Below are positions 5,718 through 44,953 of a stretch of 64,000 nt of DNA, in pieces. The stretch spans positions 1-64,000 of the forward strand of contig JAPLFD010000017.1 in assembly GCA_026390835.1 (NCBI GenBank), given 5' to 3'. The notes below the pieces were generated by a model. The model was not told where the DNA came from, did not search any database, and saw only the letters and a program-made list of their open reading frames with translations. This DNA is from Sphingobacteriales bacterium. GTDB taxonomy: Bacteria; Bacteroidota; Bacteroidia; Sphingobacteriales; Sphingobacteriaceae. Both the position numbers and the translations under genes were made by a program. The first letter of the stretch is position 1. The number at the start of each line of letters is the position of its first letter.

Positions 5718-6446
5718 ATGCCCATTTTTCAAGCATACAATCTCTATTTATCTCCGCATCGTAAGTTTGCAAAGAGCCTAAAAAATATGTTGGGCTTTGT
5801 GCCAAGTAATTTAAATTTATACCGAATGGCCTTTCGCCACCGATCGGTAGCTATTTCTCTAAAAAATGGTACCAAAAGTAGTAATGAACGTTTAGAATTT
5901 TTGGGCGATGCCATTTTGGGAGCTGTTGTAGCCGAAATGCTCTTTAAACGCTATCCCTATAAAAATGAGGGCTTTTTAACCGAAATGCGTTCTAAAATTG
6001 TAAGTAGGGTAAACTTAAACCAACTGGCCCGTAAACTCGGCTTTAACGAGCTCATAGAATACGACGCTAAAATGGTAAACTACGGCAATAAACAAAGTTC
6101 GCTTTTGGGCGATGCCTTTGAGGCTTTTATTGGTGCCGTTTACCTAGATAAAGGCTATAATTTTACCAAAGATCTCATTCTGAACCGCATAATACAAGAC
6201 CACGTAGATGTGCACCAATTGGAATTAACCGAAACCAATTTTAAAAGCAAGCTTATAGAATGGTGCCAACGCGAAGGGAAAGAGTTTGCTTTTGAACCGC
6301 TTGTAAATGAAGTTGGCGAATCCGAAAAATTATTTTGTATACAGGTCCTTGTTGATGGCGAAGTAGTAGGATTGGGCCGTGATTTTAACAAAAAAAACGC
6401 CGAAAAAATGTCTGCCGAAAAGGCCTGCGAAACGTTAAGTATTTAA
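5718..6446 (+). CDS. rnc: Ribonuclease III
   Basis: A double-strand-specific endoribonuclease for rRNA and mRNA processing. The 242-aa protein has the RNase III signature SNERLEFLGDA at residues 55-65 and the second metal-binding block GDAFEAFIGAVYLDKG from 131 (D132, E135). A C-terminal double-stranded-RNA-binding domain spans about 167-240. It lies 64 bp after fabF with no terminator visible between, matching the common acpP-fabF-rnc order. The N-terminal extension of about 25 residues is seen in Bacteroidota homologs. Confidence 0.95.
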   Translation: MPIFQAYNLYLSPHRKFAKSLKNMLGFVPSNLNLYRMAFRHRSVAISLKNGTKSSNERLEFLGDAILGAVVAEMLFKRYPYKNEGFLTEMRSKIVSRVNLNQLARKLGFNELIEYDAKMVNYGNKQSSLLGDAFEAFIGAVYLDKGYNFTKDLILNRIIQDHVDVHQLELTETNFKSKLIEWCQREGKEFAFEPLVNEVGESEKLFCIQVLVDGEVVGLGRDFNKKNAEKMSAEKACETLSI

Positions 6447-16420: not shown

Positions 16421-16456
16421 GAAAGCCTCGATAATTATCGAGGCTTTCTTGTTTTT
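16421..16456 (+). terminator. Bidirectional intrinsic terminator, pdhB / lrp
   Basis: A perfect 28-bp palindrome (16421-16448) starting GAAAGCCTCGATAA, followed on the plus strand by a T-rich tail. It lies between convergent pdhB and the Lrp-type gene and can serve both. Confidence 0.85.
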
Positions 16457-16931
16457 AAGCTATTTGAATTTGCCGCTTTATGCTTTCTTCTAAAGAGATA
16501 AACGTTTCTGTGCGCTGTATGCCGGGTGCGGCTTGTATGTCGTCGTTTAGTACTCTGCGTAAGTGGTTGGTGTCTTTACAAACAATTTTAGCAAACATGC
16601 TATATGCCCCGGTGCAGTAATGAAGTTCCACAATTTCTTTCACTTCCTTTAGGCGTTCTACCGCCTCGTTGTACTTCGATCCTTTTTGGAGATAAATTCC
16701 CAAGAACGCACAAATATCGTAGCCAATTTTTTGTGCATTTACATTCAACTGTGAACCCTCAATAATGCCCATATCTTGCATCTTTTTCATCCGAACGTGC
16801 ACCGTTCCGCCAGAAATAACTAATTTTTTGGCAATCTCGGTGTAAGGTATAGTGGCATCGGCCATTAAAATGGATAAAATCTCCTTATCTAAATTATCAA
16901 TTTCTAAATTTTGCGGCTTTTTTTCAGTCAT
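16455..16931 (-). CDS. Lrp/AsnC family transcriptional regulator
   Basis: A 158-aa regulator. The N-terminal winged helix-turn-helix spans about residues 12-60 (LDKEILSILMADATIPYTEI then KKLVISGGTVHVRMKKM), followed by an RAM ligand-binding domain (about 70-150). Members sense amino acids and bind DNA as octamers. Its target cannot be inferred; it faces pdhB convergently. An AT-rich upstream region separates it from the small RNA gene. Confidence 0.92.
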   Translation of the reverse strand: MTEKKPQNLEIDNLDKEILSILMADATIPYTEIAKKLVISGGTVHVRMKKMQDMGIIEGSQLNVNAQKIGYDICAFLGIYLQKGSKYNEAVERLKEVKEIVELHYCTGAYSMFAKIVCKDTNHLRRVLNDDIQAAPGIQRTETFISLEESIKRQIQIA

Positions 16932-17004
16932 TATTTGAAAAATTTGTTTCTATGTTAAGTTAATATTACAATTATATTAAAAATTAAATTAAATCATTAT
17001 CATA

Positions 17005-17036
17005 TTTGCAAAAAAAATCAATTTCACTTATATTTG
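17005..17036 (+). promoter_or_regulatory. Consensus Bacteroidota promoter of a small RNA
   Basis: TTTG at 17005-17008, a 20-nt spacer, then TATATTTG at 17029-17036. This is the best match to the -33/-7 consensus that I found in the window. It predicts a start at about 17043. No protein gene on the plus strand lies downstream within reach. Confidence 0.8.
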
Positions 17037-17042
17037 TCTCAA

Positions 17043-17205
17043 TGATTCGAAAGTATCATGCATCTGTGGGGAGTTTTTAACAGGTGAGAAAAGTCAAAAG
17101 CTTTTCTAGAGGTTCAACTCCTTACCCCATAGCAACCTTATTCATTAGGTTTATAATTGGTTAGTTCGAAAAAGTCCCAGACGCCCGTCAGGGACTTTTT
17201 TATTT
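17043..17205 (+). ncRNA. Standalone small RNA, possibly 6S-like
   Basis: About 160 nt between a consensus promoter and a strong terminator, with no ORF. It can fold as follows. Hairpin 1: ATGAT/ATCAT (17042-17059). Long irregular hairpin: CTGTGGG (17064-17070) with CCCATAG (17126-17132), continued by GAGTT (17071-17075) with AACTC (17116-17120), then an internal loop of 11/8 nt, then AGAAAAG (17087-17093) with CTTTTCT (17101-17107). Hairpin 3: AACCT/AGGTT (17134-17151). A closed stem interrupted by a central bubble is the layout of 6S RNA, and the size is similar, but I cannot confirm homology. A T-arm-like GGTTCAACTCC occurs but no tRNA cloverleaf forms. Confidence 0.6.
17169..17205 (+). terminator. 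Intrinsic terminator of the small RNA
   Basis: AAAAAGTCCC (17169-17178) pairs with GGGACTTTTT (17191-17200); inner GACG/CGTC may extend it. The T tract continues to about 17205. Confidence 0.85.
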
Positions 17206-17221
17206 TACACCCTTTTGCCCA

Positions 17222-17249
17222 CAAAAAAAACCCCCCGAAAATCGAGAGG
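17222..17249 (-). terminator. Probable terminator of the amidohydrolase pair
   Basis: On the minus strand CCTCTCG and CGGGGGG (complement of 17231-17249) form a stem with two G-T pairs around ATTTT, followed by a run of eight T. It is 20 bp after the downstream amidohydrolase stop. Confidence 0.65.
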
Positions 17250-17269
17250 CTTTTATTTAGAGGATGGAA

Positions 17270-18538
17270 TTATTTTACGCCGTATTTTTCTTGATAACGT
17301 TTATACAATTGCTTGTGAAGATTGTCAAGGTTAATAGTTCTACCCTGTATAAAGGCGTTTTCTACTTTATTGCCTAGCATATCTAGTGCATCACCACCAG
17401 AAATAAATAAGGTAGCATCTTTACCCACTTCTAAGCTACCGGTGCTTTTATCAATTCCTAATATTTTGGCTGTATTGAGGGTAATAAGCGCCAAGGCTTG
17501 TTCTTTGCTTAAGCCATAGGCAGCCGCAGTACCCGCCTGAAAAGGCAAGCTACGTACACGGTCGACACGGTTATTCCCACCTAGTGCTACCAATACGCCT
17601 GCATCTTGTAATATTTTTGGTAATGCGTAGGGTAAGTATACGTCATCATCGTTTTTATCGGGTAATGCCTGGGTTTCGGCAATAATTACCGGAACCTGGT
17701 TTTCTTTTCACACGTCGGCTACCAAATACGCTTCACTAGCACCAACAAGTACCAGGTTTAGGCCAAATGATTTGGCAAAGTTGATAGCCTGTAACATACC
17801 CGTTGCCTGGTTTACGTTTACAAACAGCTTTTTGCTTCCATCAAACAAACCCTTTAAGGCTTCGAAACGTGCGTTGGTAACCGTAGGTTTTGTGAGTTGA
17901 GCATAAGCCTTTGCTTCGGTAAAATAGCTGTTTAGTTTATCTATGACTTTCTGTCCAGCTTCGGCAGCCGTTCCGGTACCCTGTGTGCTCGGCCAATTTA
18001 CGTGTACAGCCATATCTTTTTTGTAAGCGGCATCTTCCCAATTCCATGCATCTAGCGTCACTACCGATGATTGTCCCGGAATTAAATCGCCTAGTGGAGT
18101 TGGCTGTGCCATCAAAATGCCATTGGAACGGGTGGTTGGAATGACTTTTGAATCGGTATTAAAGGCAATAAGAGAGCGTACATGTGGATTAATTTCTCCC
18201 ACTTCGGTTCCATCATCGGTACTACGAGCACCCAATTCAATTTCTACCAAACCTAAAATGGTGTTGGGTACAATAAAGCCTGGGTATACGTGTTTCCCAC
18301 TAGCATCAATAGTATTGGCACCGGCAATGCTCGGGGCTTCTCCTTCGCCTAGGGCGGTAATTTTACCTTCATTAAAAGCAATAAAACCATTATTAATTAC
18401 CAGCCCTGTTGCCGTGTGTATGGTAGCATGGCTAATAATAATAGGCTTATTTTGCGCCTTGCTTGGTAATATGTTGGCTTGGCCGAAACAAAAGGTGCTT
18501 AACACCAGTGCGGCAAGACTTAAACTATATCTTTTCAT
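17270..18538 (-). pseudogene. Secreted amidohydrolase-family protein interrupted by an in-frame TGA
   Basis: A 423-codon frame with a single TGA at 17710-17708 (codon 277). Upstream of it the 276-aa part has a signal peptide (first about 19 residues, ending CFGQ) and the N-terminal amidohydrolase composite domain. Downstream the same frame continues without other stops (KENQVPVIIAETQALPDK, then ALGGNNRVDRV) to the C-terminal KYGVK. The downstream part keeps GSLEVGKDATLFI, typical of the family. The PGF-x-D-x-H-x-H metal motif is absent (YPGFIVPNTILG), so it may be non-catalytic even when intact. It follows the 1007-aa paralog by 19 bp. A nonsense mutation or a base-call error is the simplest reading. 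Confidence 0.8.
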
Positions 18539-44821: not shown

Positions 44822-44889
44822 GTTTTTCTGGTTTAAACGTTTTTATTGTTTTAAAGCAGAAAATGGAGGGTTAAATAGGTTGAAAAACC

Positions 44890-44946
44890 TTGGGGTTTTA
44901 GCAATTTTTTAACGTGGTTGCAAGCAACTCAAATCGATCCACTTTT
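44890..44946 (-). promoter_or_regulatory. SAM-II riboswitch in the metK leader
   Basis: On the minus strand the conserved pieces appear in order: GTGG (44942-44939), GATTTGAG, GCTTGCAACCAC, GTTAAA and GCTAAAA. P1 pairs GTGG with CCAC (44917-44914). The pseudoknot can form between GAGTT (44930-44926) in the loop and AACCC (44897-44893), with one A-C mismatch. This is the compact H-type pseudoknot of SAM-II. It begins at the predicted transcription start and ends about 70 nt before the metK ATG. An AAAACC/GGTTTT hairpin overlaps its 3' strand. Confidence 0.85.
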
Positions 44947-44953
44947 TGCATCA

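Follow-up and report, generated by a model that had tools for sequence, protein, structure and literature searches.

The small RNA gene studied here is composed of two parts: a reduced tRNA-like structure (TLS) at the head of the transcript and, behind it, a small RNA module closed by an intrinsic terminator. The module belongs to a family present in multiple copies in Sphingobacteriaceae and also found in their phages; by synteny, the TLS is orthologous to a full class-II cloverleaf carried by other genera of Sphingobacteriaceae. The evidence for the family and for the anatomy of the two-part RNA is strong, and so is the case that this RNA family, TLS head and multicopy module together, is not described in Rfam. 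Processing and targets of the small RNA are what we infer: on balance we favor the idea that tRNA enzymes cut the TLS off, releasing a trans-acting small RNA of the Lrp circuit.

The gene lies in a window (the whole stretch of DNA that was analysed) of 64,000 nucleotides from a Sphingobacteriales bacterium, contig JAPLFD010000017.1, with the following features:

16455-16931, minus strand: lrp, divergent gene of an Lrp/AsnC-family regulator (Pfam AsnC_trans_reg, 65 bits; HTH_AsnC-type, 49 bits)
17005-17036, plus strand: promoter with -33 element TTTG (17005-17008) and -7 element TATATTTG (17029-17036), from sequence and scan
17042-17059, plus strand: 5' leader hairpin ATGAT...ATCAT ahead of the tRNA-like part, from folding
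17064-17132, plus strand: reduced TLS, from genus consensus fold, minihelix covariation and synteny with the full TLS at lrp
17064-17071 with 17125-17132, plus strand: TLS acceptor, from genus consensus fold
17087-17107, plus strand: TLS hairpin, from genus consensus fold
17109-17123, plus strand: TLS T-arm with loop TTCAACT, from genus consensus fold
17133-17144, plus strand: 12-nt spacer CAACCTTATTCA, from the distance between nt 73 and core and the homology boundary between TLS and non-TLS copies
17145-17164, plus strand: family core TTAGGTTTATAATTGGTTAG with two GGTT motifs, identical in hundreds of copies
17169-17201, plus strand: intrinsic terminator hairpin with C-rich loop (inner GAC-GCCC-GTC), from folding and stem covariation in relatives
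17270 onwards, minus strand: amidohydrolase gene, the other flank of the locus

An earlier note on this DNA had read the locus as a standalone small RNA gene on the plus strand between two minus-strand genes, with a TTTG-N20-TATATTTG promoter, no ORF and an intrinsic terminator, and all of this is borne out. The promoter, with 20 nt between TTTG and TATATTTG, is also returned by a sigma-70-type scan, and the same -33/-7 layout precedes most orthologs and TLS paralogs. No ORF of at least 50 amino acids is present on the plus strand between lrp and the amidohydrolase gene. The element is found in all five other genomes of the genus (DNA search in 100 related genomes), where synteny is conserved. 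Complementary arms other than those of the window leader, such as AAGCAA...TTGCTT, occur in the leaders of many TLS copies. The fold of the 165-nt transcript is much more stable than those of its shuffled versions (z = -4.1, 0 of 200 shuffles as good); much of this score is due to the terminator, since the z-score is only -2.2 after its removal. Within 17134-17149, pairing is possible between AACCT in the spacer and AGGTT in the core, which would hide one GGTT; this arrangement is invariant in the six sequences of the window genus. The neighboring amidohydrolase gene contains an in-frame TGA (17708-17710, minus strand) where five relatives from the genus have a sense codon, reflecting either decay or an assembly error.

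The fold proposed in the earlier note fared less well. A 12-bp closing stem with a bulge, a central bubble and a 7-bp apical stem had been described and likened to 6S RNA. This layout is indeed the minimum-energy fold of the window sequence, which alone slightly prefers it (-21.1 kcal/mol against -18.8 kcal/mol for the tRNA-like fold), hence the stem-bubble picture; it is not kept in relatives, and the consensus of six sequences folds otherwise. In four related loci (L003, L005, L006, L007) acceptor, hairpin and T-arm form the best energy fold, and the same three elements, with compensatory changes in the acceptor, make up the de novo consensus of the six window-genus sequences. Covariation among relatives, suggested as a check, is present and supports the tRNA-like acceptor/T-arm fold, not the 6S bubble; the terminator stem (helix 7) covaries in relatives as well. 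The other suggested check, a search with covariance models of 6S and 6S-Flavo (RF00013, RF01685), gave no match in 16900-17300 at E-values up to 5, and RF01685 had no match in the genome itself and none above cut-off in 60 relatives. Identity with 6S or 6S-Flavo was thus rejected. That the RNA is a 6S-like open-promoter mimic, as the window sequence taken alone, with its long stem and its bubble, would suggest, is extremely improbable, given the missing Rfam match, the absence of the bubble from folds of relatives and a 3' part which, unlike 6S, is multicopy and carried by phages.

The note's alternative, that this may be a new RNA, agrees with the Rfam search, in which the window RNA matched none of the 4227 families searched. 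Neither ARAGORN nor the Rfam tRNA model (RF00005) calls a tRNA in the window copy or in the full TLS. Selenocysteine tRNA was rejected, as the TLS scores only 16.7 bits against a cut-off of 47, and so was tmRNA, which ARAGORN detects neither in the window nor in 20 related loci. The window gives no support to the core acting on a downstream gene as a riboswitch or attenuator, the next gene being convergent. Elsewhere in the window, at 44888-44948 on the minus strand, a SAM-II riboswitch aptamer scores 59.7 bits and exceeds the gathering score.

The tRNA-like nature of the head is best seen in the full TLS, a class-II cloverleaf of 110 nt with a tRNA-Leu-like body that stands ahead of the module in many copies. 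It consists of acceptor TGTAGGG/CCCTACA, U8, tRNA-Leu-like D-arm, anticodon stem of five pairs with a U.U mismatch, loop TTGTCNC with anticodon GUC, giant variable arm, T-arm GAAGG-TTCGACT-CCTTC and G73; CCA is not encoded. Among 35 distinct sequences, 99.4% of cells are paired (48-59% in slid controls) and 13 pairs show double changes (7.1 in shuffles), with 0 of 500 shuffles as good on every measure. Acceptor, variable arm and T-arm are therefore supported by covariation; D- and anticodon stems do not vary and are backed by tRNA homology only. The near-invariant CACACCTCCTTGTC (A1 columns 30-43) of the full TLS holds a 9-nt anti-Shine-Dalgarno string, CACCTCCTT, known from 3' ends of 16S rRNA. 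It lies partly within the D-stem and is absent from the window genus, and the likeness may be a matter of chance.

In the window genus the D- and anticodon arms have been lost. Covarying acceptor and T-arm with a TTCRA loop, a hallmark of tRNA, were found in 28 distinct sequences: the 13-bp minihelix of window genus and full TLS has 29 double-change cells, against 6.7 expected. Orthology of the reduced and the full form follows from their shared neighbor, as lrp adjoins the element in all six loci of the genus and also adjoins full-length TLS copies of other genera. Among all fetched loci, lrp lies within 1.5 kb, always head-to-head, of 40 of the 61 T-arm-bearing copies versus 2 of the 134 other copies, and the lrp-linked TLS copies span 10 genera. 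Elsewhere, TLS paralogs occur near hscA-like and rpoN-like genes (names read from translations), and tandem arrays of TLS and small RNA, up to five in a row at spacings of about 310-370 bp, were seen in L131, L017, L066 and L020.

These data bear on two other explanations. The element could be a decayed tRNA gene with a terminator and nothing functional beyond that, which would suit the failure of ARAGORN and Rfam to see a tRNA and the loss of arms in the window genus; compensatory acceptor changes within the genus, kept synteny, separate promoters of module-only copies and a core identical across the family and in phages make this very unlikely. Alternatively, the RNA could work uncut, the TLS staying in place as a binding site for a tRNA enzyme or ligand and informing the lrp locus of amino-acid or charging state. 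Linkage to this amino-acid regulator speaks in its favor, and so do G73, G2-C71, G10, G34-U35-C36 and C38, none of which varies among 35 full TLS, in contrast to nt 37; we take this set to be tRNA-Asp-like (AspRS) identity. However, the window genus has kept TLS and module without the anticodon arm and G2-C71, mini-TLS and real tRNAs precede the module too, and CCA is not encoded; we consider this explanation unlikely.

The module part of the window RNA (17133-17201) is a conserved single-stranded stretch followed by the terminator. Short pieces around 17110-17170 match many further family loci, and what the matches have in common is TTTAGGTTTATAATTGGTTAG with a terminator hairpin behind it. 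An exact scan of species genomes returned at least 120 stretches with the module, and single genomes hold up to about 20 copies (G008). Among the matches listed, named records are nearly all Sphingobacteriaceae, besides a Sphingobacteriales MAG and the unclassified 'bacterium A37T11'. When 295 genomes of the class were surveyed with a tolerant core pattern, it was found in 7 of 9 other genomes of the family versus 1 of 285 genomes of other families. A loose module pattern gave 182 matches, 144 of them with CCC, CTCC or CCTC in the terminator loop and 150 with one fixed form of GGTT-GGTT spacing (variants AA, AATAA and AATTAATAA). In host genomes the module stands behind its own promoter, behind a full or reduced TLS, and once behind a real tRNA-Cys. 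The -7 box (TAnnTTTG) of short promoter-driven copies ends about 12 nt upstream of the core. On its own the module makes up a complete transcript, since the start of some promoter-driven copies is no more than about 10 nt from the core. Many module-only copies (L035, L037, L044, L057, L065 and others) have an inverted repeat TAGTGT-N7-ACACTA in or beside the promoter, pointing to control by a single shared repressor or activator.

The exact 19-nt core was also found in 34 IMG/VR contigs, most of them with the whole module. Three inspected contigs carry terminase, portal and further phage genes and are therefore true tailed phages. Phage modules stand behind a hairpin, a protein gene or tRNA-type T-arms. 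Provirus L247 matches a Sphingobacterium mizutaii copy (L041), and judging from the shared module and the proviruses, hosts of these phages are probably Sphingobacteriaceae. Phage tRNA or tRNA-like genes are located directly upstream of the module in L252 (a tRNA-Asp(gtc)), L265, L266, L268 and L256; two phage tRNAs upstream of the module are read by ARAGORN with a two-base anticodon. A match in a Tenacibaculum phage was discarded, as it is to all appearance the start region of an opposite-strand HNH gene, and plasmids gave no real match.

The junction of the two parts is what points to processing. A T-arm motif lies at most 75 nt from the core in 59 of 194 host copies and 9 of 37 phage copies (0.34% by chance), so that in these copies the module directly follows a tRNA or tRNA-like element in the manner of a tRNA trailer. 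In 58 of the 59 host copies, nt 73 and the core are 11-16 nt apart. In Mucilaginibacter and its close relatives, copies that have the CTTCTCATAA leader share TCTTCTCATAA and the core regardless of whether a TLS is present, and homology between TLS and non-TLS copies breaks exactly at TLS nt 73/74. Shared homology thus starts right after the 3' end of the TLS, which we count in favor of small RNA release at that boundary. Fixed distance, boundary and the case of L179, where the module follows a tRNA-Cys(gca), are what release through tRNA 3' processing would predict. On the other hand, the gap to the core in L179 is 31 nt, which counts against the processing model, as may the reduced window minihelix as a cleavage substrate lacking D- and anticodon arms. 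The genome has an RNase Z gene, whose score of 271 bits falls somewhat short of the curated cut-off (293).

We propose that the locus gives one transcript of about 160 nt, reduced TLS first and small RNA module second, and that RNase P together with RNase Z (or RNase E) would take the acceptor/T-arm minihelix as a tRNA end. A cut at about 17132/17133 would leave a 70-nt small RNA reaching from just before the core to the terminator. With less confidence, we suggest that this RNA acts in trans, its single-stranded core pairing FopS-like with mRNAs near start codons, that pairing would proceed without Hfq or RbpB, and that the RNA may be part of the divergently encoded Lrp/AsnC regulator's amino-acid circuit, much as GcvB is part of that of GcvA.

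The target search was unconvincing. Complementarity of the core to start regions is at chance level in sampled family genes and in the genome itself. The 31-nt family module is enriched at start regions (83 versus 33 at -14 kcal/mol), but only through a generic anti-start part, CUUUUCAU being complementary to any ATGAAAA start; the window copy is without the exact CUUUUCAU stretch. The top conserved candidate between two genus genomes was hmgA, which carries CTAACCAATTAT in four of five genus genomes; it was rejected, the site being broken in the closest relative. Among 40 shuffled cores, three equalled the best pair and one the best five. Perfect antisense targets were likewise rejected, as the matches read at up to one mismatch over 18 nt are small RNA copies; at two mismatches, sites in the window genus are little above the reversed control. 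An rnc site at 6233 of the window lies in coding sequence, and susC start regions are weak (24 of 300 shuffles as good), L205 (-20.4) being the only strong case among them. A contiguous seed would not be expected to vary in its GGTT spacing, as it does in some copies.

The module might instead be a protein-binding decoy, the GGTT pair titrating an RNA-binding protein with the terminator loop as a second contact and the TLS serving for release or stability only. Many paralogs per genome, C-rich terminator loops (the 144 of 182), the AA, AATAA and AATTAATAA spacing variants and a conserved 20-nt core without mRNA complementarity beyond chance are in line with such a role; the single fixed GGTT spacing of most copies (150 of 182) is not, and the candidate protein is missing. 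RRM_1 (RbpB) is absent from the genome itself, four genus genomes and four of five other family genomes tested, most of the tested multicopy genomes being without it, and Hfq is absent from the window genome, other genus genomes tested and most multicopy genomes. We regard the decoy as possible, at lower probability than release of a trans-acting small RNA.

Release of such an RNA would mean that bacteria, like a herpesvirus, have a regulatory RNA processed by way of a tRNA mimic, and that this RNA is tied to Lrp; it would also account for the odd tRNAs with a module trailer in some Sphingobacteriaceae phages. The locus points to an RNA family without an Rfam model in Mucilaginibacter, Sphingobacterium, Pedobacter and others, a large environmental group in which Hfq is missing where tested and RbpB is missing for the most part. 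More speculatively, and with considerable doubt on our part, the class-II scaffold with its tRNA-Asp-type set might, together with Lrp/AsnC, couple amino-acid state to release of a trans-acting small RNA, and phages might have taken up the module as a means of steering this host circuit, often placing it behind tRNAs of their own, some of them defective in the anticodon.

Several known systems share traits with this RNA. In GcvA/GcvB, the gene of an amino-acid-related transcription factor is likewise divergent from a small RNA gene; GcvA is a LysR-type regulator, GcvB is bound by Hfq, and there is no sequence relation to the present pair. The FopS small RNAs of Bacteroides thetaiotaomicron are multicopy paralogs that pair with mRNAs near start codons (PMC11697453). 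Like the module, they are a multicopy family in Bacteroidota, with intergenic copies under their own promoters and a single-stranded stretch followed by a terminator; they differ in sequence and taxon, are described without a tRNA-like head, and have in RbpB (RRM_1) a partner that the window genus and most multicopy genomes analysed here lack. 3'ETS-leuZ of Escherichia coli (PMC6191717) is also a regulatory RNA that originates as the 3' trailer in a tRNA transcript and ends with a Rho-independent terminator, but it is a RyhB sponge released by RNase E from behind a working tRNA, whereas here a conserved paralogous module follows degenerate tRNA-like elements. A similar architecture is that of the tRNA-miRNA-encoded RNAs (TMERs) of MHV68 (PMC4838037), in which a tRNA-like element lies directly 5' of a regulatory RNA, in several copies. 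TMERs belong to a eukaryotic virus, with Pol III, miRNA hairpins and Dicer, in place of bacteria and phages, and are released by tRNase Z, a route which for the present family we propose.
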